Made by a program: the position numbers and the translations under genes. Source: Porphyra umbilicalis (lineage: Eukaryota; Rhodophyta; Bangiophyceae; Bangiales; Bangiaceae). From it: a stretch of DNA of 64,000 nt. Where the stretch lies: contig KV918791.1 in assembly GCA_002049455.2 (NCBI GenBank), positions 62,001-126,000 of the forward strand, written 5' to 3'. The notes under the pieces are model-generated. The model worked only from the letters and a program-made list of their open reading frames with translations. It made no database searches and had not been told where the DNA came from. Of the stretch, positions 24,513-64,000 are shown in pieces; the stretch's first letter is position 1; each line of letters opens with the position of its first letter.

Positions 24513-24514
24513 TA

Positions 24515-27351: not shown

Positions 27352-27729
27352 TCAGTCGTTTGTGTCGCGGCTACCGGCGCGGTGCCCCACAGATGCGGCA
27401 GCAGCCACACCGTCCGGTGCGTGCGACGCCGACCGAGCGGCACGTGCGCCACCGAGGGACGTGCGGCCGCCGCTGTCAGACAGCTGGTCGATGGCCGCAA
27501 ACTCCGTCGGCTGGGTGGCCCACTCGGCGCCGGGGGTGGTCAGCTTGTCCAGCGGAAAGCGCGTGTCGAGGACCCCCACCACCCCCGACACGGTCGGCTC
27601 GAGGAGCGCGCTCAGGCGCAACGGCAGCGGCCGGTGCAGCGCCGGGGATACCCCCGCCCGGGCGGTCTGCGCTCGGGAGGCCAGCGCCACGTCCCAGTCC
27701 GCGTGCGTCACGTCTGGGAGCGGCGGCGG

Positions 27730-27765
<36 letters not shown>

Positions 27766-28835
27766 CACCACCCCCGACTGTCGCCGGGTCTGTGGCGGCG
27801 GTCGCCACCGCCTCGAGCCACTGCGGGTCGGTCCGGCGCCACGCGCAGAACACGGCTTCGGTGGCGAGGCCCCGGATTTCCGCTCCCGACCAGCCGTCTG
27901 TGCGTCGGAGGACGTACGAGACCGCCGTCTCGTCTGCCGACGTGCCTGCGTGCAACGCCATCAGCCGCCGGCGGTCGGACGCGTCGGGCAGCTGAAAGTC
28001 GAGCTCCAAGTCAAACCAGCCCGGACGCTGAAACGCCGAGTCCAACAGGTCCGCCCGGTTGGTCGCGGCGAGGACCAACACGCAACCGCGCCAGCGAAAG
28101 CCGTCGAGCAAGGCGAGAAAGGTGTTGACGACCCGCGAGTGGTCGCGGTTGTCGTCCCGCGTCGCCGCGAGGGCGTCGACTTCGTCGAGAAACAAGATGG
28201 ATGGGGCCGCCGCGGTCGCAGTGTCAAACAGGCGGCGCAGGCGGCGCTCGCCCTCGCGGACGTACTTGGAGAGGATTTCGCCGCCGCGGATGAGGTACAG
28301 AGGCACGGGGACGCCACCATTGGCCGCCCGCGCGTGCGACGCGAGCACCCGCACGCTCAGCGTCTTGCCCGTCCCGGGCGGACCGGTCAGCGGCACACTC
28401 CGGGGAAAGGGCAGGGGCCGCCCGACACCTCCCCCGCGCGGCGTGGTGGTGAGCAGCGCCAGCACCTCGCGCAGCCGCGACACGTGCGCGTCGTGGCCCG
28501 CCACCGTTTCCCACGGGAGCGAGGCGGGGGGCTCGGGCTCGGGCACAATGTCGCCGGTCTTGCCCCGCCGGCGGCGCTTGGTCGCCCCGCCCGACACTGA
28601 CCGGTCGGTGCGGGCGCGCTTGGCCCCGACGGCGCGCACCGGCGAGCCGCCTGCGTCGACGGGCGGAGGGGGGGGGCAAGCGGTTGGCGGCGCTCGCGGC
28701 ACTCGCCGGCGGCAGTGTGTGGAGGCGCCCGTCCAAGCGCGTTGCCACGTCTCGCACGGCGGCACGCGCCGCGCGGTCCCGCGCGGAACAACCACCCCGA
28801 GGCATGCCGCGCGGCGAGGGCGACGGCGGGGACAT
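27352..28835 (-). CDS. ATAD2/Yta7-like AAA ATPase, first copy (frame interrupted)
   Basis: The AAA core (about 28550-27830) has Walker A GPPGTGKT (near 28370), Walker B ILFLDEVD (near 28185), sensor-1 LAATNR, a QRPGWFD arginine-finger region and a C-terminal helix (DGWSGAEIRGLATEA). The N-terminus is basic with ATKRRRRGKTG, nuclear-signal-like. Good coding signal starts at ATG near 28835, changes register at a 9-G run (28668-28676) and again at a 30-C run (27735-27764). Beyond the latter, frame 27352-27771 continues with SPALHRPLPLRLSALLEPTV...FPLDKL, matching the second copy at 30893-32695. There is no second AAA domain, unlike ATAD2. The family acts on histones/nucleosomes. TATA box at 28986. 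Confidence 0.75.
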
Positions 28836-28985
28836 GGTGCTGCAGACGGGGGGCAAACGACAGGGCGGCGGCACCGCGCGCACCCCGCGCGCCGCCGAGC
28901 GAGCCGCGCGGTCTCGCACGAGGGCGCCTCGGTGTGACGGCGACGCCCGTCGGCGGCGGTCGCAGTAGTCTCATCGACCGGACCG

Positions 28986-28993
28986 TATTTATA
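28986..28993 (-). promoter_or_regulatory. TATA box of the first ATAD2-like gene
   Basis: TATAAATA on the minus strand, about 150 bp upstream of the preferred ATG near 28835. It sits in a GC-rich setting like the TATA box at 38200. Confidence 0.6.
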
Positions 28994-29430
28994 CCCGCTG
29001 TCGACAGGGGGGGCAGCGGCAAATTTTTATCCACGGAAGTTTGTATTCATACGGTAGCCTGCGAATCTGGCAGTGGAACGTGTGGTGGCAGATGCTGGTT
29101 GCAGACGGTCCCGTCCCAACATCCGCTTTGGCATCATGACCCGCCCCCTGAGCCCCGAGCCAATGAAACAGTGAGTTTGCTGACGCACCTAGGTCCGAGT
29201 TTTGTGAAAAGCACAATAACACACCCGCCCCCTGCCCGTCCGCTCCCCCCCCCTGCCTCCCCCACCCGTGCGCCCCCGTCCCCACCTCTCTGTCCTTTGC
29301 TGCAGCCTTCCCCACGTCTATGTCCTTGGCTGCAGCCTTCCCCGCCCGCCTCCCCCCCTCCCTCCCCCCTGCTTCACCCTCGACGCCCGCCCAATGTCTT
29401 TTGTTTAGCAATCCCCCGTGTCTCATATCC
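28994..29430. other. Intergenic, C-rich, no gene
   Basis: C/T-rich tract at 29220-29390 with two copies of TCCTTTGCTGCAGCCTTCC-like sequence. No gene is supported. Confidence 0.4.
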
Positions 29431-29749
29431 CTAGTGTCTATTCAACCGCAATCGGGCATCAAATGATGCCCGTTTGGGCATCAAATGATGCACCCTCTCC
29501 CAGGGCCAGAAAACGACGGTTCTACCCCCCCTGTTGAGGCAACTGGAGCACCCCCCGTTTGCATCTACAGCATATTGGCTGGGACCTCCCCTCAGAGTAA
29601 CAAGGCATCGCTGAGTCCGTTTCTGCAGTCTTAACGAGCGTCAGAGGTCGGGAAGTACGAAATCGAGCGCTCCGAAAATGGGCATCATTTAATGCGATTC
29701 GCATCAATGCGATTCGCATCAAATGATGCTGCGGTAGAATAGACACTAG
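29431..29749. mobile_element. MITE, CTAGTGTCTATTC family (complete)
   Basis: Both ends read CTAGTGTCTATTC(A/T)ACCGCA inward. Several GCATCAAATGATGC palindromes lie just inside each end. The outer CTAG may be a 4-bp target duplication or part of the terminus. It is 319 bp and non-coding. A partial copy is at 2457. Confidence 0.8.
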
Positions 29750-29822
29750 AGGTTCCTCATCACCGCACGTGTCATAGGCCTCCTCTGCAAAGCGTCCCCA
29801 GCTCACGCGCTCCCTTGGCTGT

Positions 29823-30650
29823 GTACCCCACAGGCGTCCTGGGGGGTGGGCTTGGGTGCCCAGCGACGCGCAGGGGTCCTCCCGGGCCGCACCCCGGTGG
29901 GTGGTTGATTTTGCAAAATATGTTTTATGTAGCCCACCAGGCTACAATAAAACCAACGGTATTGCTAGAGTCAACTCTCGTAGGTTTTCCATTGGATTGT
30001 GATACATCACCCCATCTGGGGGGGGTGTCCTGGGGGTGCCCTGGGGGTACCCCACAGGCGTCGTGGGGGCGGGCTTGGGTGCCCAGCGACGCGCAGGGGT
30101 CCCCCCGGGCCGCACCCCGGTAGGTGGTTGATTTTGCAAAATATGTTTTATGTAGCCCACCAGGCTACCATAAAACCAACGGTATTGCTAGAGTCAACTC
30201 TCGTAGGTTTTCCATTGGATTGTGATACATCACCCCATCTGGGGGGGGTGTCCTGGGGGTGCCCTGGGGGTACCCCACAGGCGTCGTGGGGGTGGGCTTG
30301 GGTGCCCGGCGACGCGCAGGGGTCCCCCCGGGCCGCACCCCGGTAGGTGGTTGATTTTGCAAAATATGTTTTATGTAGCCCACCAGGCTACCATAAAACC
30401 AACGGTATTGCTAGAGTCAACTCACATAGGTTTTCCATTGGATTGTGGTACATCATTCCATCTGGGGGGGGGTGTGCTGGGGGTGCCCTGGGCGTGCCCG
30501 ACAGGCGTCGTCGGGGGGGGCTTCGGTGCCCAGCGACGCGCAGGGGTCCCGCCGGGCCGCACCGCGGTAGCCGCGACGGGGTGGTTGTTTTTACAAAATA
30601 TTTTTTTTGTAGCCCACCAGGCTACCATAAAACCAACGGTACATCACCCC
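29823..30650 (+). repeat. Tandem array 1, about 223-bp units with shared core
   Basis: About 3.6 units. Each has a GC-rich half (ACCCCACAGGCGTC..., GGGCCGCACCCCGG) and an A/T-richer half with the hairpin GTAGCCCACCAGGCTAC, then AGAGTCAACTCT and AGGTTTTCCATTGGATTGTG. The second half is the core shared with arrays at 38.4, 39.9 and 47.2 kb. Frames of 70-230 codons through the array are artefacts. Confidence 0.9.
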
Positions 30651-30892
30651 ATCCGGGGTGGGGGGCCCTGGGGGTGCCCACTCGCGTCCACCTGCGCAAA
30701 GCCCCCCCCGCCGGTCGGTGCTTGCGTCTAGACACATCGCGTGCGCTTTGCCGCCCGTCCACAAGAGCCGTCAGCGGCGCCGTCACCGCCGCCACCATCG
30801 TACGTGTCGTCATTGGCGACACCGTCTGCTGTGTTTGCGCCGACACTCGGCATTTCGCCGTCGAGCGCGACGGTGGCCCCCAAAAAGCTCCC

Positions 30893-32695
30893 TCACAGGT
30901 CCACCCCCGTCCGGACCTCCATGGACAGGCGGGCGCGGAGGCCCTCAAACACCTGCTCCATCGCGTCGACGCTCCAATCCGCCGACTGTGTCGGCAACGC
31001 CTCCAGCCGTGCGCGTACGGCCGTCATGGCGACTGGTAGGCGTACACCTTTCTCGAGCTGCACGGCAAACTTGTCCTGCCACGCCCCGACGATGTAGGCC
31101 CAGTAGTCGGTGCGCTGCGCATCTGTGGCGCATTCGACAGAAACGGTGGAGGGGAAGCTGGCCAGCAACGCAGGGCGGGCGCGCCCATCCGTTGTGGCCA
31201 AAACCAGGAGCGGCGTGCCGACGGGTACGTCCCGGAGCGCCGCCTCAAAAAAGCGCAGGTCTGTCGAGTCCCCCGCCGACGAGTCGTCCACCCACAAGTG
31301 TGCGTGGGGGATGAAGAGCACGGCCAGCGCGGCGCGCGTGGCGGCGGAAATCGTCTCTGCCAGCCGCTGCTGGGGGGTACGCGCACCAGCCCCGCGTGTC
31401 AGCGACACAAAGCCCGCGTCATAGATCGGCATTGGTGTCAGCGCATGGAGAACCGCAGCTGCGACGGTGCCTTGTCGCATCCCCTCGTCCCCGTCAATGA
31501 GCAGTCGCTGGGGCAAAATGGGGAGGCCCGCGGCCAAGACTTTGAACCCAGTGTCCGCGCCGCACCCAACCGCCGCTGCGGCGGCGCACCGCCCAGGCAC
31601 CGAACCGAGCCGCTGGACGGGAAAGTGGCGAGTGAGAAACCCCCGCACGTCGGCCAGCGTCGGTGCCAGCAGCAGCGTCACGCGTTCGGGGAGCGGCCGC
31701 CGCAGGGGCGGCGGCGTCCCGAGCCGCGTGAACTGTTCGCGCCGGTAGAGGGTGCCCTGCCAGTTGACACGCACGTCGGCAGGATCGTCGGCAACCTCCT
31801 CAATCGAGTCGGGCCACCCCGGAAACCGCCGCGCGAAGACGGTCGTGGCGGCATCGTCACAGAGGCCCGCGAGCTCGGCCCCCGACCAGTCGTCGGTGTG
31901 GTTGGCGATCCAGGGCGCGTCCGCGGCGTCCACGGGCACGCCCACCGCGGCGGCCGACACGCGCATGATGGCCGCGCGGCCGGCCGCGTCGGGGAGCCCA
32001 AAGCGCAGCTCCGTACCAAACCGGCCGGGCCGACGAAACGCGGGATCGATCAGGTCGACACGGGACGTCGCCGCAACACCCAACACCCGGTCCCGCCGCC
32101 CCAACCCGTCCAAGAACGCCAACAGCGTGGCGATCACGGGCATCGACTCTTGGCGCCCGCCGGTGCGCGTGGCCGCGAGCGCCTCAAACGCGTAGAAAAA
32201 AATGATGGACGGCTGCGCGGCGGTAGCGGCGTACATCACACGCCGGACACACTGTTTGCCGTGGCCGACGCACTTGGAGAGGAGCTCGCCGCCATTGAGG
32301 ACCCACAGGGGCACCACGGTGCCCCCATTGAGCGCCTTGGCACGGCCCGCCAGCAGGCGGACGGCCAGCGTCTTGCCCGTCCCGGGGAAGCCCGTCAACA
32401 AAACCCCACTCTTGGTCGCGGCCCCCGCCGCCCGTCGCGCGTCGGGCATCAGGAGGACGGCAAGGGCGACTTCGAGGGCGTCCACGTTGGCCGCTTGGCT
32501 GGCAAGCGCGTCCCACCCCGGCGTGTCGTCGGGCAGTTGCAGCGGCTCGGGCGGTGGCGTCGACGACCGCGGTGAGTCGGCCGTGCGGGTGCGGTGGCGC
32601 TGCCGTCGCTGCGGCGGTGGCTGCTCCTCCTCCTGGTACTGTGGACGCGGAGGGGGCGGGCCAGCCAACAACGAACAAAAGGAACCATAATACAT
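30893..32695 (-). CDS. ATAD2/Yta7-like AAA protein, second copy, degenerate Walker B
   Basis: 600 codons from ATG 32695 (MYYGSF). The first AAA domain (residues 60-330) has Walker A GFPGTGKT (102-109), but the Walker B box reads IIFFYAFEAL (164-173) in place of hhhhDEh, so the catalytic D and E are missing; sensor VAATSR and RRPGRF remain. The linker SRL-type segment PPPLRRPLPERV...HFPVQRL is as in ATAD2. Residues 370-600 match the second, naturally degenerate AAA domain of ATAD2/Yta7 (LLIDGDEGMRQGTVAAAVLHAL ... ALAVLFIPHAHLWVDD). Upstream, frames to 33059 joined across a 14-G run (32734-32747) may add a proline-rich N-terminus. ATP hydrolysis is doubtful; a structural partner of the first copy is possible. 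Confidence 0.75.
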   Translation of the reverse strand: MYYGSFCSLLAGPPPPRPQYQEEEQPPPQRRQRHRTRTADSPRSSTPPPEPLQLPDDTPGWDALASQAANVDALEVALAVLLMPDARRAAGAATKSGVLLTGFPGTGKTLAVRLLAGRAKALNGGTVVPLWVLNGGELLSKCVGHGKQCVRRVMYAATAAQPSIIFFYAFEALAATRTGGRQESMPVIATLLAFLDGLGRRDRVLGVAATSRVDLIDPAFRRPGRFGTELRFGLPDAAGRAAIMRVSAAAVGVPVDAADAPWIANHTDDWSGAELAGLCDDAATTVFARRFPGWPDSIEEVADDPADVRVNWQGTLYRREQFTRLGTPPPLRRPLPERVTLLLAPTLADVRGFLTRHFPVQRLGSVPGRCAAAAAVGCGADTGFKVLAAGLPILPQRLLIDGDEGMRQGTVAAAVLHALTPMPIYDAGFVSLTRGAGARTPQQRLAETISAATRAALAVLFIPHAHLWVDDSSAGDSTDLRFFEAALRDVPVGTPLLVLATTDGRARPALLASFPSTVSVECATDAQRTDYWAYIVGAWQDKFAVQLEKGVRLPVAMTAVRARLEALPTQSADWSVDAMEQVFEGLRARLSMEVRTGVDL

Positions 32696-33059
32696 CGCCG
32701 AGAGGTTCTGGGCGCCGCCCGTGGCAGGTGATCGGGGGGGGGGGGGGTGGTGGGCGGGGCTTCGGGCGGGGCCTCGGGCGGGGCCTCGGGCGGGGCCTCG
32801 GTGCGCCTGCCACCCCGAGCGCCGGCACCTCGGCCGGCAGCGGGGGGGGGTGCACGTGGACGAGCCCCGGCAGACGACAGCGGGGGGCGCCCAAGGCCGG
32901 CGGGGGCGGCCCGCCGGCCCCCCCTGCCCCGAGCGGGCGCGGCCGCGCCACCCACGCCGCGCCGACCAGCGTCAGGGGGGGAGGGCACCCCATCGCCCGC
33001 GCGGTCGCCACCGGCACCGTCATCTCGCGTGGCACGCGGCGTGCCGACCATGTTGACAA

Positions 33060-33085
33060 GCAAGGGAGCCGCGGCTACACACGAA

Positions 33086-33117
<32 letters not shown>

Positions 33118-33720
33118 CCGACGCGGCCACGGGGGCAGTTGGTGTGTGTGGGGTGGGAGAGGAGGGTGTCACTATCTGGACCACCGCGCTGCCTGTCCCG
33201 TCTCTGCCCGGAGCCGTGGCGCCCACCAACCTTTTCTAGGGGCTGGCGCCCGCGGGACGACCAATCACGATGGGCTGACAGCCACCTCTCAGCAACAGCA
33301 ATGCAGCCTTCCCCACCGCAGAAGCCACAACCGCCCATCTCGTGGGCCCTGTGGCAGACCCGTCCAGTGCACTGTCGCAGTCGGTGTTGTACCCTCCATA
33401 CCGTACGCGCTGGGCACGCTCGCCGTTCCAACAGGCGCGTCAGTGTTGTGGTCCCTCGCACAGCACAGTGGCGAACCCACACCTGTGACGGCGTCTGTCA
33501 ATGGGCGACGCGCTCCGAGTCGCACCGTGGCGCGCTGGCGTGTCGCCTGTGGTAGACTCATTGGGATTGAGCACACATCGTATTGATACAATGTACCAAA
33601 CCTCTACTGACTGTCCTACAAAAAGAAAGATGCATCTCGCGTGTCGATCGCTCCTACCCCCCGCCCACCCAAAACGCACGACCGGTCGACCGAGGTGGGG
33701 CCGCGCCGGGACCGCCCGAC
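33060..33720. other. Intergenic, no gene; 25-G run
   Basis: A 25-G run lies at 33086-33110. Frames on both strands are shadows without domain or codon signal. Confidence 0.45.
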
Positions 33721-34031
33721 CTATCGGTCAAACGCCTGCGGGGAGCTCCGTCCCGTGCCGGCGCGCGACTTTTGCACAAACTTCCACTCAAAGTCGGCCC
33801 CATATTCGACCAGCAGCTCCTCCCCGAACGCAACCGCCCGCGTCGTCACCAGGGTGAGGGTGTCGTCCCGGGACAGGTCCTCCACGGCACGGATGTCCGT
33901 GTACCACTTCAACACCACGTTTAGCCCCTGGACCTCGGGCGCTGGGGACCGCGCGGGACCCGGCGCGGGCGCGACCGGTGCCAGAGCACCCGCAGCACTC
34001 GCATCACGCGCATCATGCGCTGGCGCGGCCG

Positions 34032-34067
<36 letters not shown>

Positions 34068-34316
34068 ACATGCGCCGGCCGCCGCGTCGGCGGCGACATG
34101 CGCTGCGCCGATGACCGGTCCCCAGTGGTTGACAAACCCGAGCGCCGACCCGCCCAGGGGCACAACCCAAAACGGCTGGGCCCAGTGAGACATCTTGTGC
34201 CCGTTCAGGCGGCAGAGCTGGGGCGTCACACGCGCCTTTCCGCGCATCGGCCCGAAGAAGTGGTTCTTGACTTGCTCGTACTGCGCCATCTGACAGTTGT
34301 GCCACACGACCGGACC
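33721..34316 (-). CDS. SET-domain segment, C-terminal part of the ParB-methyltransferase gene
   Basis: Coding signal continues in the same frame past the TGA at 34317-34319: WHNCQMAQYEQVKNHFFGP...SALGFVNHWGPVIGA, where FVNHW matches the SET pseudoknot RFINHS box (near 34120). A 36-C run (34032-34067) then shifts the register, after which comes LTLVTTRAVAFGEELLVEYG (near 33810), the GEEL..YG end of a SET domain. The start of the fold, DAGLGCFVSRPDG (GxG strand), is encoded just before the TGA, in the previous feature. The family methylates lysines. Key Asn-His and the closing Tyr are visible; activity is uncertain. This is either the distal part of one fusion gene or an adjacent remnant. Confidence 0.65.
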
Positions 34317-37300
34317 TCACGAGGACCCGACGGTGTGTTGGGCGCCAAAGCCATCCGGCCGGCTGACAAAGCAGCCGAGGCCCGCATCCGGTACGGTCGA
34401 GACGCCAAGGCGGACGCCACAGGCAGACTCGTCGGCAGCGCGGAGAGACGCGATCGGAAAATCCTCAAAAAGAAACCGAAGGGCACGCCGCCACTTTCGC
34501 AAATGCAAGGCGTACATCGCCCCAATCTCCACGGGTGTCACCACGTCCGCGGCAGCGAGCGGGACGTACGCGGCCACGACGTGGTCCACAATGTGCCTCG
34601 GCAGCACCGTGTGTGGCACCATCTCCGTCGCGGGCGGCTGCAAAATGCTGCGCCGCGCAGGCCGCATCGCCGGTGGGCGATCGTGGGAGAGCACGTTGCG
34701 GTCGAGCGCACCGACGGTGGTCGTGACAGCCGATGCCAGCTCCGCATCTCGCTCGCAAATGGCTCGACCGTCGTGCGTCGAGGACAAAAAGCGGACAAAT
34801 GACGAAAAGACGCGTCGCTTGCCAAACCGCACTGCCACGGGGTCCTTGTCACAGCTCCAACTGTGGCGCCGCGTCTGGATGCGCGCGTCCGCCGATGAAA
34901 AGGAGCCCGCAAATAGGTCCAACACGACGTCGCTCGGTTTGGTGAAGCGTCGAATGAGCTCGCACAAGAGGCTGACCGGCTTCTGCTTGGGGCGCAGGAT
35001 GCCGTCGCCCGCATAGACGACCTCGCGACCCGTCGGCTGCGTCACATGGTTGTACACGTTGCTGATGCCGGGCATACTCGACACGTCACTGTCAAACACG
35101 CGGTAGTTGACCATGCGGTGGCCGGCCAACCCCGCGCCGCGCCGCGTCGCGTGTACGGCCACAAACATGTGGTTGGCGAGGGTGGTGGTGCTTCGCGGCG
35201 CGGCCGTCGGCGTCGAACAAATAAAGGCCATGGGGCCCGCGTCCACCGCCCACAGCGACTCGGTCTTCGTCGGGGCCTTGTACGATTCGAGCGTCTTGGA
35301 CAGGTTCGAAAACTGGGAGAAGGAGCACATGATGATGGCGTGGCCCCCCTGCCGAACGCTGGACGTCGCAAAGTCACACAGCACCCCCCGGTCCGCGTCG
35401 TTAAAGACGTCGTGGTCAGAGTTGTCATTGCCAGCGACACGCCGCGTATTCCACGGAATGTCCGTCAGCAGCAGCTGGACGCGCAGCTGGAGGCGGGATA
35501 CGGGGAACGTCCAAAAGTCGAGCTCGTACGTGCGGCACTCCTCTGCCAGAGCGCGGTCGACCACCTTGAAGGCGTCACGCTCCGCGTCGGTCAAGCCGGC
35601 CACCAGCCCGACAGAGGTGTCTGTCGGTAGGGCCCCTTCCGGCGCGACGGGAACACGCACAGCGTCAACGGGGTCCGCCTCGACCGGCAAACGCAGCTGC
35701 TTCAGGTAGCTCGACAAGACGGGCGCCAGACCATCCACCAGCGTGCGCCGGGGTCGAAGGAAGGACGCGCCGCTCAAACTCCCAATGTCGGCGCGCATGG
35801 ACAGCGGGTTGTAGGTGTTTGACCAAACGTCCTTGCCGTTGGAAACGGTAACGACGTGCTCGACAAAGCGAACGGCCGCTGTCCGCAACGCCCGATCCGC
35901 CAGCGGCAAAGCGTCCAGCCGCCGCAAGGCAGCGGCGTCGACCACGGCAGGGTCCACCGAGGGCCGTTGCCCATGCCACAGGCGATGGCAACTCGCCAGG
36001 GGGGCGAACCCCAACCGGGCGTCGGTGATCGGCTCAAAACACACCTTCGGTGCGGACCACAACAGGTAGGGCGACAGCATGGTTTCACTGTCGGGGAAGC
36101 CACACAAGATTGCAAGCACGTCCCACGATCGCACGCACGCCATGATCTGCGCCTTGACGCGAAAGCCCCGCAGCTCGCGGTCGACGGTGCCGACCGGGTC
36201 GGGCGCCCGTCGCAGACGCGGTGTCGCAACGGCGACGATCGCCTTGGCCGCCTTGGTCTTTAGGGTGCCCCCCTGGCGAGCGACGCGGGAAGCACGACCG
36301 GGGGCGTTGCGCGCCGCCGGCGCCCCGTCCGCCGCACCCGCGCGCTTGGACGGGGCCTTGCCCGCACGCTTGGGCGTCGGCAGTGAGGGCCTCGTGTCGT
36401 TGACGTCTTCGAGAAACGGGTGCGCCGCCGTCACGTCGCGCGCGAGTTGGGTAAACCACCACAGCCGCTTCCACGGGGTCGCGTAGGGACCACACGGCGC
36501 CACACGGCGCGCTGTGGTGGTCTTGTCGATCACACAATACGCGGCAGTCTCGCACAGCGCCTGGGAGCGATCCACCGCCGCAGCGACAACAGCAGCGGAG
36601 AGCATTGACGGGGCACCCGCAGCTGGAGCGGTCATCGCCGCGGCGCCGGCCGATGCAGCACGTCCCTCGTCTGCAACGTCTCGGGGCGCACTCGATGCCG
36701 CGCCGGCGGCCGCCTTGTCCGTACCCGTGGCAACGCTGTCGACACCGCGCGCGGCCGCGGCACCGCGACTGACGCGGCGCACCTTTGTTGGCGGCGCGCC
36801 GTCGCCACCGTCGGGCGCACCGTCCACGGCGATCGACGCCACCCCGTCTCGGTCGACGTCCATGGGCGCGTCAGAGCTGCCCTCGGCGGCGTCTGCGTCC
36901 TCCTCCTCGTCGGACGGGGATTGCGATGGCCCCTGACCCGAGCGCCGCCCTCGTTTGGTGCGCTTGGGCGGTCCTTTCGCGAGCTTTGGGAAAGAGGGGC
37001 CCCCAAAGTTGCGCCACTGATGGGACACCAGCACAGGACAGTGGAGCATGCTCCATGTAACCCGGGGCAGGCGGTCCGCCGGGCGGTCCGTAAACCCGAC
37101 CCGGGAGCGCTCCCCTGCACTGGCGCCACCGCCACTACTGGCACGTGTGCCAGCCGTGGCCGGTGCCCCATCCGTTTCGGCGGGCCCGTCTGCGTCGACG
37201 AGCACGTCGGCCAGATCATCGAGGCGGCGGCCCAGGAACAGGAACAGCTCCCAGCACCGCGTGTCGACAGGCGCAGCGCGCGCTTGCCGCGCCGCAGTCA

Positions 37301-37634
37301 GGTGGTCAGAAGTCCACGGCTTGATAGCCTGCAGGAGGCGGTACCACGTGTACGTGCGGTTCTCCGATATCCACTTGACGAGCCCCTCCTCCGTCGAGGC
37401 CCCTTCAGCTCTGCCCGAGCTGCGCAGAACCTCCTTGAGAGTCACTTTGCGGACGGGGATGTCGTCTTCCCTAACCAGGTCGTCCCGCACAAAGGTCATT
37501 GACATGAAGAAGTCGACAGACGCCATACGCAGGGTCCGCGCCGTGGTCGTGTTCTTGTTTGACGCCATGACCACGCGCGTCGCGTCGGTCAGGTTGGCCG
37601 CCTTTGCCTCGGTCGTGGGGCCCCCGGGGACCAA
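34317..37634 (-). CDS. DNA methyltransferase (beta-type N6-adenine/N4-cytosine) with start of a SET domain
   Basis: 1105 open codons. Residues 1-150 continue the ParB-like module from the upstream frame (NLTDATRVVMASNKN). 150-450 is an acidic, disordered region with many Ala/Ser. The catalytic region has LLLTDIPWN near residue 724 (motif IV, DPPY-like with Ile for the first Pro) and, later, VVLDLFAGSFSSADA near 905 (motif I) preceded by KPVSLLCELI. This motif IV-before-motif I order defines the beta class. CDKDP fits motif II. The last 20 residues, DAGLGCFVSRPDG, begin a SET domain that continues after the stop. Family: transfers methyl from SAM to DNA bases, here probably nuclear. Base specificity cannot be read. 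Confidence 0.8.
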   Translation of the reverse strand: MVPGGPTTEAKAANLTDATRVVMASNKNTTTARTLRMASVDFFMSMTFVRDDLVREDDIPVRKVTLKEVLRSSGRAEGASTEEGLVKWISENRTYTWYRLLQAIKPWTSDHLTAARQARAAPVDTRCWELFLFLGRRLDDLADVLVDADGPAETDGAPATAGTRASSGGGASAGERSRVGFTDRPADRLPRVTWSMLHCPVLVSHQWRNFGGPSFPKLAKGPPKRTKRGRRSGQGPSQSPSDEEEDADAAEGSSDAPMDVDRDGVASIAVDGAPDGGDGAPPTKVRRVSRGAAAARGVDSVATGTDKAAAGAASSAPRDVADEGRAASAGAAAMTAPAAGAPSMLSAAVVAAAVDRSQALCETAAYCVIDKTTTARRVAPCGPYATPWKRLWWFTQLARDVTAAHPFLEDVNDTRPSLPTPKRAGKAPSKRAGAADGAPAARNAPGRASRVARQGGTLKTKAAKAIVAVATPRLRRAPDPVGTVDRELRGFRVKAQIMACVRSWDVLAILCGFPDSETMLSPYLLWSAPKVCFEPITDARLGFAPLASCHRLWHGQRPSVDPAVVDAAALRRLDALPLADRALRTAAVRFVEHVVTVSNGKDVWSNTYNPLSMRADIGSLSGASFLRPRRTLVDGLAPVLSSYLKQLRLPVEADPVDAVRVPVAPEGALPTDTSVGLVAGLTDAERDAFKVVDRALAEECRTYELDFWTFPVSRLQLRVQLLLTDIPWNTRRVAGNDNSDHDVFNDADRGVLCDFATSSVRQGGHAIIMCSFSQFSNLSKTLESYKAPTKTESLWAVDAGPMAFICSTPTAAPRSTTTLANHMFVAVHATRRGAGLAGHRMVNYRVFDSDVSSMPGISNVYNHVTQPTGREVVYAGDGILRPKQKPVSLLCELIRRFTKPSDVVLDLFAGSFSSADARIQTRRHSWSCDKDPVAVRFGKRRVFSSFVRFLSSTHDGRAICERDAELASAVTTTVGALDRNVLSHDRPPAMRPARRSILQPPATEMVPHTVLPRHIVDHVVAAYVPLAAADVVTPVEIGAMYALHLRKWRRALRFLFEDFPIASLRAADESACGVRLGVSTVPDAGLGCFVSRPDGFGAQHTVGSS

Positions 37635-38098
37635 CCAGGGTACCGCGTCCAGCCATCGGGGTAGCCCTCTCCCGCCAGCTGCCGCTCAGCCGCAAGCAAG
37701 CGGTGGTGGCCCTCGACGACGACGCCGTGGCGCTCGCCGCGAATGGCGAGACCTGGGATCGGGTGGGCGGCCAAGTCCTTGAGCGAGTCCGGCTCGATCT
37801 CGTCGACGTGATCCAGCACCACAGACCGACAGCGCGTCCCGTACCGGAAGAAGCCGACTTCAACCCACACTGTTGCGCCCACTGGGAGAGAGTCTGGTTC
37901 AACGTCAAGGGGGCTGCCCGTCACGTTGGTCATCAACGGCTGGGAGGTTGCCGCGGCAGGTGGCAGCGGCTGGACCACCCCCACCGGCAGCGGTTGGACA
38001 GCCGCCACGCCGTCACCATGTCGATGTGCTTGCGCACCCCCACGTCCCGCCTTTGGCGCGTTGGTGGTCGCACCCCCGGCTGCTGGCGTTGTCCCCAT
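37589..38098 (-). CDS. ParB-like domain, N-terminal part of the methyltransferase gene
   Basis: Starts at ATG 38098 (MGTTPAAGG), about 100 bp after a TATA box. Residues 55-150 form a ParB/Srx-like module: DHVDEIEPDSLKDLAAHPI, then GVVVEGHHRLLAAERQLAGEG, the canonical DGHHR-type nucleotide-binding box. The frame runs into the 34317-37634 frame in another register. The switch lies at GGGGCCCCCGGGG (about 37617-37629), after which the ParB pattern continues (NLTDATRVVMASNKN), so one protein of about 1300 residues is likely. ParB-methyltransferase fusions are known from phages and plasmids. Confidence 0.75.
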   Translation of the reverse strand: MGTTPAAGGATTNAPKAGRGGAQAHRHGDGVAAVQPLPVGVVQPLPPAAATSQPLMTNVTGSPLDVEPDSLPVGATVWVEVGFFRYGTRCRSVVLDHVDEIEPDSLKDLAAHPIPGLAIRGERHGVVVEGHHRLLAAERQLAGEGYPDGWTRYPGWSPGAPRPRQRRPT

Positions 38099-38199
38099 CG
38101 TCACTGCCGCTACGCACACACACACCGCGTCCGGTCCGAGCCCGGCGCACGTCGGCACCCGTCAACGGGCACACCCCACGCAGCCAGACATACCCCTCT

Positions 38200-38207
38200 T
38201 ATTTATA
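38200..38207 (-). promoter_or_regulatory. TATA box of the ParB-methyltransferase-SET gene
   Basis: TATAAATA on the minus strand in CGCCTATAAATAAGAGGGG, about 100 bp upstream of ATG 38098 and 115-190 bp from the start of array 2. Confidence 0.7.
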
Positions 38208-38319
38208 GGCGTATCGCAGGGTGCACTGCGTCGGCAATGACGAGCGGTGCTGGTGCGCCAGGCGTATCAGTTGCGCACCGCAGCGAGCACGCCCACAGAG
38301 GGTTTGACGCCGGCGGTTT

Positions 38320-38935
38320 GTTGGTGTGGGCGGCTGACCGCCCCTCCCGGGTGCGCAAGACGCCGTCTGGACGACCCCCCCCTGAAGGTGCGTGTGCACC
38401 ACAATCCAATGGAAAACCTACAAGAGTTGACTCTGGCAATACGGACGGTTTTGGGGTAGCCCGGGGGGCCACAAAGATAAATTTTGAAACGCGTCCCACA
38501 CCACGCACACACACGCGGAGGCCCCCCCGGCACCCACGTAGGTGGTGTGGGCAGCTGACCGCCCCTCCCGGGTGTGCAAGGCGCCATCTGGACGACCCCC
38601 CCCTGAAGGTGCTTGTGCACCACAATCCAATGGAAAACCTACAAGAGTTGACTCTGGCAATACGGACGGTTTTGGGGTAGCCCGGGGGGCCACAAAGATA
38701 AATTTTGAAACGCGTCCCACACCACGCACACACACGCGGAGGCCCCCCCGGCACCCACGTAGGTGGTGTGGGCAGCTGACCGCCCCTCCCGTGTGCGCAA
38801 GGCGCCGTCTGGACGACCCCCCCATGAAGGTGCTTGTGCACCACGATCCAATGGAAAACCTACGAGAGTTGACTCTTGCAATACGGATGGTTTTGGGGTA
38901 GCCCGGGGGGCCACGAAGAAACATTTTGGATCATA
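38320..38935 (-). repeat. Tandem array 2, 221-bp units, minus orientation
   Basis: Three units, with the core motif CCAATGGAAAACCTAC at 38406, 38627 and 38848. In minus orientation the core reads GCCAGAGTCAACTCT...AGGTTTTCCATTGGATTG, matching arrays 1, 3 and 4. It sits directly upstream of the TATA box of the minus-strand ParB-methyltransferase gene. Confidence 0.9.
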
Positions 38936-39125
38936 ATCCCACACATTGCCGACACAGTGGGGGGCTTCCTCGGCCCCTACCTGTTGAACTGATGGGCAGT
39001 TGTGGTTCAGTGTCTTTGCTGTCAAATGACAAACCCCTCACAACAACCCCCATGTTCTCATGTCTCAAGACCCTCTCTGGAAAGCCTGAAAGCGGAGCAT
39101 GGCACAAGTGACGGACAGTTCTATT
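38936..39125. other. Intergenic spacer before MITE
   Basis: A/T-richer spacer without a gene. Confidence 0.4.
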
Positions 39126-39456
39126 TGTGGCGGCTGATTTTAGAATCCGCGATCTAGGTGAGCTTCATCGAACGCAGATACGGCGAGTTAAGGATTGTTC
39201 GATCTAAAGTCACACAGGTCAATCCTGAGTCGCGATTCCCTCGTCATGGGTGATCTGGCCGGTCCTTTCCTGGTTCTGGGCTAAAGTCAGCAGAACGTCA
39301 TGGATCGAGAAAATTACATCCCTGCTCTGGGATTTGATTCAGTGCAGATGGCGAAGGCGGCGTTCGACAGTTCGTGACGAGACGATTCTTGAGGTCTGAA
39401 TAGGTCAGAAATGTTGACAGCCCCATAGATCGCGGACTCTAAAATCAGCCGCCACA
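39126..39456. mobile_element. MITE with 31-bp terminal inverted repeats
   Basis: The ends read TGTGGCGGCTGATTTTAGA then (A/G)TCCGCGATCTA on both sides, one mismatch apart. The element is 331 bp and non-coding, and is flanked by A/T-rich sequence. It is a different family from the CTAGTGTC and TA-TTGC MITEs. Confidence 0.8.
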
Positions 39457-39839
39457 TTTAGTCTTATCAAGAACGTATTCTTCTTGCAAGGTGGTCACTG
39501 CCTGGTGTCCATTCTGCCCAGGCTAAAATCAGGCTCTGATGAAAATCAAATAAGGCTCTCTCTCATATGGCCTGGAAACGCAATCTTACTGGTGTGTCTG
39601 GGGCACCCCCTGCAAGCTTTCATCTCACACAGTCGCCCAGTTCGTGCATTGGTAAGTAAACTGCGCTGAGACAACATCACTCCTTGAGCAGCCGAGGCAG
39701 GCAATATGGTTTCACAGTGGCAGCCCATCTCTTGGAGGGTGCTCTGGGCGTGCCAAGGGCACGCCCAGGACACACATGCAGGGCATTCCAAGACACGCCA
39801 ACACACAGGGGTCCCCCCAGGACGCACGCCATTTAGCCA
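39457..39839. other. Intergenic spacer
   Basis: No supported gene. It contains a short inverted repeat GGGCGTGCCAAGGGCACGCCC near 39747. Confidence 0.4.
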
Positions 39840-40600
39840 CGTCGGGGTGTTTGATTTTGCAGATTATCATTTTGGTAGCCCACCAGGCTACCATAAAACC
39901 AACGCTACTGCTAGAGTCAACTCTGGCACGTTTTCCATTTGATTGTGGTACTGCGACCCATCTGGGGGGGGTTGCTCTGAGGGGGCCCCACCGGCGTCCT
40001 GGGGGGGTCTGGGGAGGCCGCCCCCCGGTAGCCACGTCGGTGTGTTTGATTTTGCAGATTATCCTTTTGGTAGCCCACCAGTCTATCATAAATCCAACGA
40101 TATTGCTAGAGTCAACTCTGGCAGGTTTTCCATTGGATTGTGGTACTGCGACCCATCTGGGGGGGGTTGCTCTGAGGGGGCCCCACCGGCGTCCTGGGGG
40201 GGTCTGGGGAGGCCGCCCCCCGGTAGCCACGTCGGGGTGGTTGATTTTGCAGATTATCATTTTGGTTGCCCACCAGGCTACCATAAAACCAACGGTATTG
40301 CTAGAGTCAACTCTGACAGGTTTTCCATTGGACGGTGGTACTGCGACCCATCTGGGGGGGGTTGCTCTGAGGGGGCCCCACCGGCGTCCTGGGGGGGTCT
40401 GGGGAGGCCGCCCCCCGGTAGCCACGTCGGGGTGGTTGATTTTGCAGATTATCATTTTGGTAGCCCACCAGGCTACCATAAAAATAACGGTATTGCTAGA
40501 GTCAACTCTGGCAGGTTTTCCATTGGATTGTGGTACTGCGACCCATCTGGGGGGGGGTGCTCTGAGGGGGCCCCACCGGCGTCCTGGGGGGGTCTGAGGT
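39840..40600 (+). repeat. Tandem array 3, 195-bp units
   Basis: Four units (TTTTCCATT at 39931, 40126, 40321 and 40516). Each has the hairpin GTAGCCCACCAGGCTAC, the palindromic AGAGTCAACTCT and TTTTCCATTGGATTGTGGTA, plus a GC-rich half with GGGGGCCCCACCGGCGTCC. It lies upstream of the duplicated TATA promoter and the ParB-like gene at 41026, in the same orientation. Confidence 0.9.
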
Positions 40601-40659
40601 CACCACCGACGCGCGGGGGTGCTCCGAGGCCGCCCCCTGGGGGAAAGGCGCGACGTGGG

Positions 40660-40945
40660 GGGGTTGTATACACTGCTTGAGCGTGGTGTGCCGACCGACC
40701 ACTGGTGTGCCACAGGTCTATATAAGACCTGGACCCTGTGCGTGCCCGCTCAGTCGGGTTACGGACCGGACCCGCGTGTGACGCGCAGGGGTGTCCCCAG
40801 GCCGCACCCGCGGTGGCCGCGTGGAGGAGGGTCGGGACGTGGGGGGGTTGCGGACACTGCTTGAGCGCGGTGTGCCGACCGACCACTGGTGTGCCACAGG
40901 TCTATATAAGACCTGGACCCTGTGCGTGCCCGCTCAGACCCCCTG
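40660..40945 (+). promoter_or_regulatory. Duplicated promoter with palindromic TATA boxes
   Basis: Two 184-bp copies of a promoter-like block, each with TATATAA (40719-40725 and 40903-40909) inside the perfect inverted repeat CAGGTCTATATAAGACCTG, preceded by GACCACTGGTGTGCCA and followed by GACCCTGTGCGTGCCC. The second copy is about 120 bp upstream of ATG 41026. Confidence 0.75.
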
Positions 40946-41025
40946 GTGCCGCACCTGTCACACCCCGAGACGCCGTCGTGCTTCTCAACCCCCCCCCCCC
41001 TCAACCGTGCGACTCTGAGAGTGTC

Positions 41026-41847
41026 ATGGTGGCGTCTCTGGCTGGCGCGGCCGACGGGTCGGTGCCCCTGCCCCCCACTGTCTTGCGCGATGTGAAGGTC
41101 GGAAGCCTGCGCATTCCGGATCTGATGCCCCGCCGTCAGTCCAGCTCATTGGTTCGTGACATCCTGGCAACCATTTGGCGATATCGCACATTGCCAGAGG
41201 CGCATGCACCGATCTTGTGCCTCGACCGTGAGGACCCGTCCTTCATCATCCCTTGCGACGGCGGTCATCGCGTGAGCGCGATCCTTCAAGCGCTGCGGGA
41301 GGGTATCTTGGGTGCAGAGGACATCATTCGCGCCCTCGTCATTGTCGACCAAGATGAGCAGAGCGTTTCCCTCTGTGACTCCATGCGCGCCCTTCTGGCG
41401 ATGGAGTACAACCATCAAGGCCACAACATCGCACGCACGTCGGCGTACGACAGCATCACCACCAACCTCATGATCTTCCGAGCCTGGTCGGCGGAGACTG
41501 CCATTGAGCTCAGCATCAGCAGTGCAGCCGAGTATGCCGCTGGGTACACCACCAAGCAGCTGTACGTCTCTTGCAGGGAGCCGCCGAGGACATTTGCTGC
41601 TCGACGTAAGGCCGTTGAGACGCTGTTCAAGGCTGTCTTTACCTTTCTGGAGAGCCCCAGGGCGCTACAGTTTCGGGGAAAGACTCTAGAGGAGGGCCGC
41701 TTTGAGCCACCCACCTACCCTCACTACCGCTACAGTGTGACGGTGTTGGGCGCCCCAAGCCTGCGCAAGTCTCTCGCCCCTGAGTCGTCGGCCGACGAGC
41801 GGGACCAAGTTCGCTGCGTGCTGCTGCGCGTGTTTGAGGCGTGGTAA
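41026..41847 (+). CDS. ParB-like domain protein
   Basis: 273 codons from the first ATG after the duplicated TATA promoter. Residues 40-160 fit a ParB-like fold: a lead strand HAPILCLDRED, the IIPCDGGHRVSAILQAL box (D78, G79, G80, H81, R82) and a downstream LLAMEYNHQGHNIARTSAYD helix resembling the ParB N-E-x-R/H region. Residues 170-273 are an uncharacterised helical region. ParB-family modules bind DNA or nucleotide (CTPase or nuclease); no HTH is visible. The TAA at 41845 is followed in the same frame, nine bases later, by the ATG of the next gene, which is unusual for a eukaryote. Confidence 0.65.
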   Translation: MVASLAGAADGSVPLPPTVLRDVKVGSLRIPDLMPRRQSSSLVRDILATIWRYRTLPEAHAPILCLDREDPSFIIPCDGGHRVSAILQALREGILGAEDIIRALVIVDQDEQSVSLCDSMRALLAMEYNHQGHNIARTSAYDSITTNLMIFRAWSAETAIELSISSAAEYAAGYTTKQLYVSCREPPRTFAARRKAVETLFKAVFTFLESPRALQFRGKTLEEGRFEPPTYPHYRYSVTVLGAPSLRKSLAPESSADERDQVRCVLLRVFEAW

Positions 41848-41856
41848 GACGTGCAC

Positions 41857-44646
41857 ATGGGCATTGATGGCGACACGCCTCGACCCTGGGAGGGGGTCGA
41901 ACACCCCACCCTGACGGTCGCCCTAGGCAAGCGTATTGGCGACTCCTTTGCTCCCTTCGTGCGAGGCATGACGGAAGCTGCGGTGATCGCCGGGAGATCG
42001 CTGGAGGAGGTGTTGGCGCTCCATCCGGGGCCTACTGCCGATGTGCCGTACCCGTCGGTTGGGGACCGTTTGGTGTCCACGTTTCGCCACCTCGCTCCCC
42101 CGCCGTCATCTGTTGAGGAGGACAGTGACGGGCTGTTTCAGGCCCAAGGGAATGCCTTGCGCGCCGACCTTGTGGACGCGCTCCGGCAGGATTCCGAGCA
42201 CCCGCCCATTGTGCCGTGGGTCGTCCCTGGTCTGCCATGCGCCTCCGACGCAGACGCGGCCGACGAAGAGGATGCCAATGCGCCCGCGCTCGGCCCGGAA
42301 ATTGACCAGGTTCTTGCGCACCTTGATGGCGAGGACCCGCAGAGCTATATCGGCCTTTTTCAAGAGACGTCGTCAAGGCCACTACCTGTGGTTCGTGTAC
42401 CAACCGGGGACGAGCTTGCGTGTCGTGATCTTGAGGCTGCCGACCAGTGGGGTTTGGCGGATGCCGCTGGTGGCGACGGCCCGCGCGGTACCCCCCGCGT
42501 GTCTGACGGTGTCGCCTCTGGCGACGGTGATGGGGACGGGCCCGCAGGCACCACACCCCGTGCGGCTGACGGTGCGGCCTCTGGCGACGGTGGTGGGGAC
42601 GTTGGGGGCTCTGGTGGCGACGGCCCGCCCGTTACCCCCTGCGTGTCTGACGGTGCCGCCTCTGGCGACGGTGATGGGGACGGCACCCATGGCCGGATGG
42701 ACGCACACGGCCTGGACCCCACCGCTAACTCTCACGTGGACGACCGAGGCGGACGTGCCCGGGCAGGTTACGGTGCGAATGGTGGCGAGCCTCCCACGAC
42801 ACCCGCGACGGCGCTTGCCACGTCGGCCGCGGGGCGCGCGACTGTGTCGCCGGATGGCGCGTCGCCGCCGTCACGCGCTTCTCGACGTGCCTCTGCTCGC
42901 ACTCCGCCTGGTGCTGCTCAGCGAAAGAGGCGTCCACCAGTGTCTGGCAAAGGTGCGACTCGGCGCGGGCGGTCTCCCGAGGTTGTCGAAGTGACACCCG
43001 GCCGGGCGCGTTCCCCTCTTCGAAACGAACAAGCGGCGCGTGAGACCGGCTCGACCCGTGGCAGCCGAGCGACGGATGCCACTCTCCCGACGACACACAC
43101 GGGGGGTGTGCGGCACCGTCGCCCTCGAGGTGCGAGCGGTGTCCCTGTGCACGTGTACGCGCACCCCACGGCGAGCGCAGAGGACGCCAACTGGTTTCGC
43201 CGCGAGTGGGCCTGTGGTGCCAGCGCGGTTGCGTCCGCTGCCGAGCGCGGTGGTCCGTCGCTCATGGGTGTGCTGACAACTCCCGCTTTCAGTGTGCTCG
43301 TGCCGAAGAACCACCGTGCGAGGCTGGCCGTCCGTCGCCCGTTTTGGCTGGCCGTCGACGGGCGCGTCCGGACGTGGGGCCTGCTGCAGCGGATGCGACC
43401 GCTGACTGCCGTTGGCGAGCGCCCGGCGGAGCTCACACACGAACGCGTTGAGGGCGGGGTCGCGGCGGCCGCTTTTTTCAGTGCGAGCGCGACCCTGCTG
43501 TTCAGTCGAGGGTCGGTCACGCTGGACCACCTCGCAGACATGACGACCATGGGGGCCGTCGGACACGACCTCGCGGCTTCTCTGTGGACGTTGCTGGCTG
43601 GCGTGACGGCCAAGTCGGAGGGGGACGTCAAGGTGTTGACCGCCGCTTCTCGATCGGCGTCGGACCCCTTTGCCACCATGCACTACAGGCGCCGTGTGGC
43701 AGACAAGGACCGGCTTGCCGCCGCCAAGGTGGACGTCGTGATTGCGTGCATCTTTCACCACTTGACGGCGGCGTTCCGTGCCGCACACGAGCAGAAGGAC
43801 GCCCCACCCGTGGTCGAAGGACGCCGCGTCGAGTCCGGGGGTTGTCACGTGCGAGTGACGGCCTCTCACGCGGTTCGCAGTCCGTTCTTCCACTATGGGG
43901 AGCCGGACCCGATCGTGGCGCCAGAGTTTTCGACCGTACGAGCAGACGGCAACTTTGTGGCGCTCGTCACGGCGACCAACGCGCATGTCATTGAGTGGGG
44001 GTCGTCGTCTACACCTGCGGTCCTGCCCCCCTTCTCCGTCACGTTCATCCTCCAGGACCTCCACCACGCGTACGCCAGTCGGGAGGTCGTGGCGCTCGTC
44101 GCGGTCATGTACGCGGGGGTCGAAGCCGACGACGTGGTCACCATGGTCTTGCGGCGTACGCATCCCAACCTACCAGACGCGCCTCCGCTGCGAGGCGGAG
44201 CCTGCGCTATGTACGAGCTGCACCCGGCACAGGGAGGCATTCGTGGCCATCGGGTTGCGGACGGGGTCAGCGGCTCGCAGCGTCCCCCGGGCATGACGAC
44301 TGCCATGGAGGCGCTGACAGCGGCGGCCCAGGCGCACGTCAGCCTGCGGGCGTTTGACCCTGGGGAGTTGGAAGCGACCACCGCCCGCGTCGTGTCCTCC
44401 CCCAAGCCGGCGCGGCCGACGCTGCGTGCCCACACGGCGTTAGCTGGGATGACCGCACCGCCCCGCGACGCGACATTTTCGAGGATGGTCCGGCTACTCT
44501 CATCCGAAGCGCAGCCGTCGTCCGACTCGGACGGGCAACGTGCGGCGAGCGCCAAGGATGCGGATTACGAGGCCGGGGGCTCCCCCTCGGGATCCTCCTC
44601 CAGCACCTCCTCATCAGACGACTCAGAGGGCTCCACATCTGGGTAG
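41857..44646 (+). CDS. Large hypothetical protein with acidic repeat linker
   Basis: 929 codons from ATG 41857 (MGIDGDTPRPWEG). Residues 1-200 look folded. 205-275 contain degenerate repeats (VSDGVASGDGDGDG). 275-440 are basic and disordered (RKRRPPVSGKGATRRGRSP). 440-800 form a second folded region (VPVHVYAHP, NWFRREWACG, RRPFWLAVDGRVRTWGLLQRM, VTLDHLADMTTMGAVGHDL, VVALVAVMYAGVEADDVV). The tail is serine/aspartate-rich (SSSSTSSSDDSEG). No family is recognised. It follows the ParB-like gene in phase, separated only by TAA and eight bases, so the two may be read as one unit or expressed by reinitiation. Codons are strongly G/C-ended, supporting real coding. Confidence 0.7.
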   Translation: MGIDGDTPRPWEGVEHPTLTVALGKRIGDSFAPFVRGMTEAAVIAGRSLEEVLALHPGPTADVPYPSVGDRLVSTFRHLAPPPSSVEEDSDGLFQAQGNALRADLVDALRQDSEHPPIVPWVVPGLPCASDADAADEEDANAPALGPEIDQVLAHLDGEDPQSYIGLFQETSSRPLPVVRVPTGDELACRDLEAADQWGLADAAGGDGPRGTPRVSDGVASGDGDGDGPAGTTPRAADGAASGDGGGDVGGSGGDGPPVTPCVSDGAASGDGDGDGTHGRMDAHGLDPTANSHVDDRGGRARAGYGANGGEPPTTPATALATSAAGRATVSPDGASPPSRASRRASARTPPGAAQRKRRPPVSGKGATRRGRSPEVVEVTPGRARSPLRNEQAARETGSTRGSRATDATLPTTHTGGVRHRRPRGASGVPVHVYAHPTASAEDANWFRREWACGASAVASAAERGGPSLMGVLTTPAFSVLVPKNHRARLAVRRPFWLAVDGRVRTWGLLQRMRPLTAVGERPAELTHERVEGGVAAAAFFSASATLLFSRGSVTLDHLADMTTMGAVGHDLAASLWTLLAGVTAKSEGDVKVLTAASRSASDPFATMHYRRRVADKDRLAAAKVDVVIACIFHHLTAAFRAAHEQKDAPPVVEGRRVESGGCHVRVTASHAVRSPFFHYGEPDPIVAPEFSTVRADGNFVALVTATNAHVIEWGSSSTPAVLPPFSVTFILQDLHHAYASREVVALVAVMYAGVEADDVVTMVLRRTHPNLPDAPPLRGGACAMYELHPAQGGIRGHRVADGVSGSQRPPGMTTAMEALTAAAQAHVSLRAFDPGELEATTARVVSSPKPARPTLRAHTALAGMTAPPRDATFSRMVRLLSSEAQPSSDSDGQRAASAKDADYEAGGSPSGSSSSTSSSDDSEGSTSG

Positions 44647-45118
44647 AGCACAGAGGGCAGTTTCACCGACGCGTCGACGGCCTGACTCATACAATATCGG
44701 TAGTGTGCGCTTGTGTGTTCGTGGTCTGTTTTTTTGTGACCCCACTTCACCGTTGCTGCTCGTGTGTCAGTGGTGCTCCACTGTTTGCGCTTCGCGTGTG
44801 ATGCCAAAAGACTGTCGATTTTAGGGTGGGTAGAACACCGGCCACCGTTGGCCCTGCCAATATGCTTTTCACAATTGCAGCTCCCGTCCCTTCCGTCCTG
44901 CCTGTCAATCCGGCACGTGGCGCCGTCGGTCGCCGGCGGTGCCTATAAGAAAGGCTCGACAAAGCACGGCGGTGGTGGCCGTGCACGTTCCGTTGTCGCC
45001 GGCACCCGCGGGCAGTGCACTCCCGCGACGCGGTGAGCAGAGGAGACGCCCGCCGCAGCACGTTGGTGCCCGAGCGTCGAGTGCGCGTGCCGGCCCGTCG
45101 TTGCCGTTGGTTGCCGCC
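44647..45118 (+). other. Intergenic region with promoter of the Ulp1-like gene
   Basis: TATAAG at 44944-44949 inside GCCTATAAGAAAGGC, 170 bp upstream of ATG 45119. No gene is in between. Confidence 0.5.
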
Positions 45119-48403: not shown

Positions 48404-48415
48404 ATCATCTCCCAC

Positions 48416-63990: not shown

Positions 63991-64000
63991 CCTCTTCCAG

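Follow-up and report, generated by a model that had tools for sequence, protein, structure and literature searches.

A stretch of 64,000 nucleotides (nt) from contig KV918791.1 of Porphyra umbilicalis (C31:62001-126000, here called the window and numbered from its first letter; the genome comprises 83.8 Mb in 665 contigs) carries on its minus strand an apparent composite gene that joins a short-motif N-terminal region to a beta-class DNA methyltransferase and this in turn to a divergent SET domain. In the genome PBS_linker_poly has 12 matches, four on contig C665, which looks like the plastid, and eight on other contigs; among 14 control genomes it is matched in Synechococcus alone. We read this as the mark of a red alga. 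The window gene appears to be a decayed member of a multicopy family, the least damaged relatives of which are predicted to encode a protein of ~1,450-1,500 amino acids (aa) in which a GHxR-motif region and a middle region precede a permuted methyltransferase and, at the C-terminus, a divergent SET domain, and it is evidently the cargo of a large mobile element. We hold the identity of both gene and element with high confidence. The overall reading that we favour, in which this cargo gene would put its two domains to use for the element, we consider fairly probable as a whole, and the particular mechanism of marking or anti-silencing less so. The parts of the gene in the window are as follows.

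33721..38098, minus strand: putative composite gene, decayed copy, with GHxR-motif region, beta-class DNA methyltransferase and SET domain (motifs read; single-frame relatives)
38200..38207, minus strand: TATA box, 109 bp upstream of the ATG at 38098
37550..37897, minus strand: N-terminal region, GHHR motif, resembling ParB by eye alone (motif; profile support none)
34800..35477, minus strand: predicted beta-class amino-methyltransferase, with motif IV (DIPW) ahead of motif I (DLFAGS) (PF01555)
34317..34319, minus strand: in-frame TGA, closing the methyltransferase open reading frame (ORF) and missing in sister copies
34119..34440, minus strand: putative SET domain, first half (GLGCFVS ... FVNHWG; alignable to family B and to the family-A copies that are in frame; profile test)
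34032..34067, minus strand: G run of 36 bases, polyglycine inside SET in sister copies
33775..33925, minus strand: putative SET domain, second half (VLKWYTDIRAVEDL ... FGEELLVEYG; motifs; Pfam SET at E ~0.05 when the intact piece of either family is taken alone)

Copies and domains of the composite gene

An earlier note on this DNA had read a chain of motifs down the minus strand from 38098 to 33721, and every one of them was found in the order given: VEGHHRLLAAE, DIPWN, DLFAGS, DAGLGCFVSRPDG, FVNHW and GEELLVEYG. In the window they are divided among three frames, with VEGHH in the frame at 37589-38158, the methyltransferase in the ORF at 34317-37634 and GEELLVEYG in the frame at 33721-34320, which is reached after the 36-base G run. 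The note's TATA box at the 5' end and its continuation of coding phase beyond the TGA both stood: the ATG was found in eight of the 12 loci tried (window included), each time with TATAAA 109 bp upstream, and the TGA is missing from all ten of the other copies in which the stretch was located (11 other loci tried). The splitting of SET over the end of the methyltransferase frame, which the note had also described, is indeed seen in the window but represents the decay of one copy. SET is complete and in frame at six of the eight loci of the window type that were tried (C60, C48, C7, C94, C272 and C22), these in-frame copies having 8-14 glycines, sometimes interrupted, at the position of the G run. 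The runs range from 16 to 80 bases and vary in length from copy to copy inside the coding domain, which may reflect real slippage or assembly error. Just upstream of the gene lie tandem repeats of ~220 bp (38322-38928), the number of which seems to vary between element copies, judging from overlapping DNA matches.

Searching the genome with the DNA of 33721-38150 revealed 26 matching stretches, the window itself counted. Among them are the window-type copies, family A, with near-full copies at 94-97% identity on C25 (two), C60, C88, C22 and C363, partial or broken copies at 91-97% on C445, C48, C7, C94, C272, C345 and C30; the rest are short pieces. In the C88 copy a single ORF of 1,418 aa spans the GHHR region and the methyltransferase and continues into FVNHWG, with the end of SET in another frame; the C60 copy has one open frame of 1,051 aa with the methyltransferase and the whole of SET. 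A diverged paralogue family, family B, was matched on C82, C265, C5, C8, C62, C113, C40 and C33, and as a fragment on C77. Its C82 member is a single ORF of 1,487 aa in which a GHAR region is joined to the methyltransferase (DPPYG, DLFMGTGTT) and to a SET domain that is complete and has no polyglycine. The two families are 35% identical over 822 aa, through the methyltransferase and the first half of SET, and 45-46% identical in the SET region. The single-frame versions in C82 and C60, and a pairing that is kept across deep divergence, bear out the earlier note's claim that one gene joins a beta-class DNA methyltransferase to SET.

A protein search yielded P0001 (99-100%, a family-B sequence) together with P0002, and the latter as query also gave P0003-P0005; in both of these searches scoring covered the ~8,000 candidates that had the most words in common. 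The source labels of the five are ena, lgn and jgi. All five have PF01555 and an alignable C-terminal region. The same kind of search with the C88 version gave zero matches. A viral origin was also considered, but of the pattern matches that scans of IMG/VR produced, 25 for P0001 and 99 for A1, none was confirmed.

The methyltransferase is the sole relevant Pfam family (N6_N4_Mtase, PF01555) in the window gene pieces, at 5.3e-9, the other rows being weak and unrelated; of the three Pfam families that the earlier note had proposed to search for, the other two, SET and ParB, gave no match at E<=1 in these pieces. The same family is matched by C82 at 2.2e-13 and by C88 at 1.9e-12, phrog_67 by the C88 version at 1.3e-20 and by C82 at 3.4e-17, and there are matches to NCBIfam and to PDB sequence 5hek (2.9e-7). 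A tblastn search against phages gave 171 records, and the 25 matches listed all run through the methyltransferase. An AlphaFold model of P0003 built from a six-sequence alignment has a mean predicted local distance difference test score (pLDDT) of 40.9 and is usable just in the methyltransferase core (~60-83); Foldseek with this model placed CcrM first (4.3e-7) and the rotifer N4CMT, 8s9m, at 1.5e-5. Family B has canonical motifs, DPPYG followed by DLFMGTGTT. Family A keeps the order with altered letters, DIPW being present in nine of 11 copies and FAGSF in 12 of 12 with letters there. With what we take to be motif IV (DPPY-type) lying ahead of what we take to be motif I (FxGxG), the domain is assigned to the permuted beta class and is predicted to act on N6 of adenine or N4 of cytosine.

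The N-terminal region was a different matter. What the earlier note had called a ParB-type box proved to be just a short GHxR motif, weak evidence that no profile supports. It reads GHHR in most family-A copies and GHAR in C82, within a region 35% identical between the families; in P0002-P0004, which start with methionine, no GHxR-type region was seen by eye. ParB was found in the N-terminal region neither by Pfam, PHROGs nor comparison with phages, the one row of a PDB profile search (1.9) was not ParB, and a plasmid search gave five rows, all at E of 4 or more and none annotated as ParB. Across the genome, ParB (PF02195) at E<=10 had 0 matches, and 0 candidates at first look, while the same Pfam search matched 11 of 14 control genomes. 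Another ORF of the element (40726-41844) has a DGGHR motif and a weak match to DndB (0.19), making it a second GHR-type protein there; a 931-aa ORF without a Pfam family follows it.

For SET, the window translation alone gave nothing at E<=1, an outcome that the earlier note had itself named as telling against its proposal, and the support therefore comes from sister copies and relatives. In the isolated C82 and C60 pieces SET is the sole Pfam family listed (0.053 and 0.052), and in P0003 it appears at 0.056. A family profile of eight rows (two from B, two from A, and P0002-P0005), compared with eight SET domains of the same genome, matched SET with Prob 78.6 and E 1.7e-5 over 103 of 106 columns, which brings GxG, NH and GEEL..DYG into register. 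None of 300 shuffles of the well-filled columns reached its score of 36.8 (best 19.0), and the reversed profile scored 9.6. Most copies of the two families retain the GxG, NH and terminal [DE]Y signature. Of the family-A copies with letters at the position concerned, window included, all 12 have GEELLV[DE]YG and all 11 have NH; P0005 keeps GAELLLDYG, and P0002-P0004 by eye lack the NH and the final Tyr. A PDB profile search with A3 had as its top row (0.12) a single-chain variable fragment (scFv) with glycine linkers, SETD8 first appearing at 0.43 behind chance rows. From these comparisons of sequence we conclude that the C-terminal region is a divergent SET domain.

SET genes are expanded throughout the genome, with 85 matches, many in long open frames (loci including L002, L005 and L008). 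Whether these are further examples of the composite gene was considered and ruled out for three long loci of multicopy type: by eye they look E(z)/CXC-like, and no methyltransferase lies in the stretch seen. A fourth SET locus that was read is another SET protein. The E(z)/CXC-like loci may be carried by other elements.

The carrier element

The features of the element that bear most directly on the composite gene are these.

23705..64000, right terminus ~15 bp beyond the window (C31:126015), no strand assigned: apparent large mobile element, ~40.3 kb including a nested copia (shared ends)
30893..32695, minus strand: AAA ATPase gene next to the composite gene in both families (PF00004, 8.3e-26)
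61856..63967, plus strand: Fanzor/TnpB-like gene near the right end (PF07282, 8e-6, 26.4 bits against a cut-off of 26.3, 22 residues matched)

The left terminus, ATTAGCGAAGCTTCTAGTAGGGATCC at ~23705, is sharp and is common to five copies (window included) with unrelated flanks. A 21-base pattern of this end, with <=2 mismatches allowed, has 133 matches genome-wide (67 + 66), and the backward control has 0. At the right, homology with C60, C334 and C94 stops at a point 15 bp past the window end in the window contig, after two short hairpins. With both ends located, the window holds ~40.3 kb of one element. Its ends share by eye just a short inverted stretch, and no target-site duplication was evident by eye; because the right end falls outside the window, comparing the window with itself cannot reveal terminal inverted repeats. 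The genes between the ends are two AAA ATPases, the composite gene, the DGGHR ORF, ORFs with C48-protease-like, leucine-rich repeat (LRR) and weak zinc-knuckle character, and the Fanzor-like gene. At least 44 stretches genome-wide match the Fanzor segment. The composite gene has fewer matches and so looks like cargo carried by a subset of the elements.

The AAA gene beside the composite gene is 91-97% identical at the DNA level among family-A contexts and 87% identical on C82, C113 and C33, where it stands beside family-B genes in contexts with the same left end as the A elements. A DNA search with the window gene gave in family B just 51-bp pieces at 84%, in C82, C265 and C5. On C594, C287 and C71 the AAA gene is present at 87-88% and the family-B search gave no composite-gene match. 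The composite gene would thus appear either to have been replaced, as a swapped cassette, or to be diverging far faster than the neighbouring AAA gene, and either course suggests that its specificity matters.

Rates of nonsynonymous against synonymous change (dN/dS) were compared between copies; those almost identical to C82 carry little information of this kind. C62 against C82 gives 0.40 in the middle region, 0.48 in the methyltransferase and 0.51 in SET, C8 against C82 gives 0.47, 0.76 and 0.43, respectively, and C33 against C82 gives 0.81 in the methyltransferase and 0.47 in SET. The overall pattern, including the higher values given below, fits a history of past constraint together with present decay.

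Possible function and known systems

In the reading that we favour, the protein would methylate amino groups in the DNA of the element, or at sites picked by its N-terminal part, and the SET domain would methylate, at that same site, a lysine of histones or of some other protein bound to DNA, so that the element would be marked, or its chromatin kept expressible against host silencing. The analogy is to phage and plasmid methyltransferases that shield their own DNA and to other transposons with SET or TET/JBP genes. The activity of both domains, the substrate and the benefit are what we infer. A coupling of DNA and protein methylation in one polypeptide would be plausible; the marking or anti-silencing mechanism itself we put forward tentatively, as somewhat short of an even chance. 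We regard as more speculative still, and on balance doubtful, a larger picture in which the protein would write two layers, DNA amino-methylation and chromatin-lysine methylation, at N-terminally chosen sites, with specificity renewed by whole-gene swaps between similar elements. Giant transposons would on this view possess an epigenetic system of self-identity, related forms of which would occur in other genomes.

Several results weigh against the favoured reading. No family-A copy was seen with all parts in one frame, and in family B just C82 has them so. SET is below the Pfam cut-off in every sequence (14.4 bits against 22.4 for the isolated pieces of both families), absent at E<=5 from full-length C82, C88, P0001 and P0002, and absent at E<=1 from P0004 and P0005. 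Profiles from subsets of the family differ: Prob is 5.6 for A alone, 6.5 for P0002-P0005 alone and 3.1 for P0005 alone, 85 over 26 columns for B alone and 66 over 38 columns for A and B together, for which a separate comparison with SET gave Prob 45 over 67 columns. AlphaFold has pLDDT <40 in the SET region, the mean for P0001 alone is 36.8, and the six-sequence P0003 model did not resolve SET. The unusual motifs of family A (DIPW; FAGSF) suggest that this branch of the methyltransferase may be weak, altered or inactive. The nested copia aside, no transposase was recognised in the Pfam results for those ORFs between the element ends that were scanned. Lastly, C40 of family B against C82 gives dN/dS of 0.59 in the middle region, 0.60 in the methyltransferase and 1.01 in SET, and the family-A pairwise means are 0.70 in the N-terminal region, 0.80 in the middle, 0.87 in the methyltransferase and 0.75 in SET; the family-A values and the C40 SET value are those of mostly decaying copies.

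In one rival explanation, chance or decay would have left an ordinary methyltransferase gene ending in a spurious tail that resembles SET. This would account for the broken window copy and for the missing Pfam SET match in window pieces and full-length proteins alike, but such a tail would hardly be 45-46% identical between families, complete and in frame at six of the eight family-A loci tried and alignable in P0002-P0005, and none of 300 shuffles reached its SET profile score; this explanation is disfavoured and we think it very improbable. It is conceivable, if rather unlikely, that an active and self-marking DNA methyltransferase is accompanied by a SET remnant with a structural or binding role and without lysine methylation. 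The great divergence of the domain, the polyglycine insertion in family A and the loss by eye of the NH and final Tyr positions from P0002-P0004 would agree with this; the invariant GEELLV[DE]YG and NH of the family-A copies with letters there, and the GAELLLDYG of P0005, speak against it.

In a further explanation, somewhat less probable again, the conflict would be between elements and not with host silencing, the composite gene giving each element its own identity, for instance by shielding its DNA from a partner nuclease (Fanzor or a nuclease with a GHxR domain), and swaps would change the specificity. This would suit the contrast between the adjoining AAA gene, 87% identical in DNA between A and B, and the composite protein at ~35-37%, as well as the mere 51-bp pieces found by the window-gene DNA search, the left end shared by A and B elements, and the presence of a Fanzor-like gene inside the element. 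An RNA-guided Fanzor nuclease, however, need not be blocked by DNA methylation, no restriction partner or target site is known, and fast divergence without swapping is also possible.

Like the ParB-methylases of phages and plasmids (phrog_67, phrog_498), the red-algal gene has a methyltransferase that matches phrog_67, at positions 141-342 (C82) and 143-343 (C88); the confinement of the match to 141-343 leaves room in phrog_67 for an N-terminal domain, which we take to be ParB. Unlike them, it has no detectable ParB match. Such ParB-methylase proteins are mentioned in PMC5512222, and 'SET domain' does not occur in its text. Among eukaryotes, the N4CMT of bdelloid rotifers is a host gene combining a PF01555 methyltransferase with a chromodomain, and is said to have no eukaryotic homologs (PMC8885841). 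The Porphyra gene resembles it as a bacterial-type permuted amino-methyltransferase in a eukaryote, fused to a chromatin-related domain, and differs in that the partner is SET and the gene lies on a multicopy element. Mobile elements with SET methyltransferase genes are likewise known, namely HarbingerS, and MuDR of Phytophthora, as cited in PMC12730594; a DNA methyltransferase goes unmentioned for these in the sections available, whereas here both would be in one polypeptide. Fungal DNA transposons carry TET/JBP and so share with this element a DNA-base-modifying enzyme on a transposon, but theirs is a dioxygenase and not an amino-methyltransferase, and no SET fusion is mentioned in those same sections (PMC12730594). 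No DNA methyltransferase-SET fusion was described in the titles and abstract openings found by a literature search, the scope of which took in neither Repbase reports nor subscription papers. There are known transposons that carry SET genes or DNA-modifying enzymes, and rotifers are known to have captured a bacterial amino-methyltransferase; the gene described here would join the two predicted writers in one protein, on a mobile element and with relatives elsewhere. It would give a direct handle on whether eukaryotes pair amino-methylated DNA, as N6-methyladenine (6mA) or N4-methylcytosine (4mC), with histone marks, and bears on how large eukaryotic elements cope with host silencing. It is predicted that copies of the element would carry 6mA or 4mC, in motifs differing between A and B elements.

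Other genes in and around the element

Two further features within the element are the following.

27476..28795, minus strand: second AAA ATPase gene (PF00004, 1.6e-31)
55021..60901, plus strand: nested copia retrotransposon (RVT_2 2.1e-54, gag 4.5e-27), missing from the C60 copy

In the C60 copy of the Fanzor-like gene a cysteine and RD motif was read. The C48 (Ulp1) protease-like ORF lies at 44834-46033 and is under Pfam's cut-off. Outside the element, at 4798-9515, an ORF for a tnp2 (CACTA-type) transposase stands beside one with a JmjC domain.

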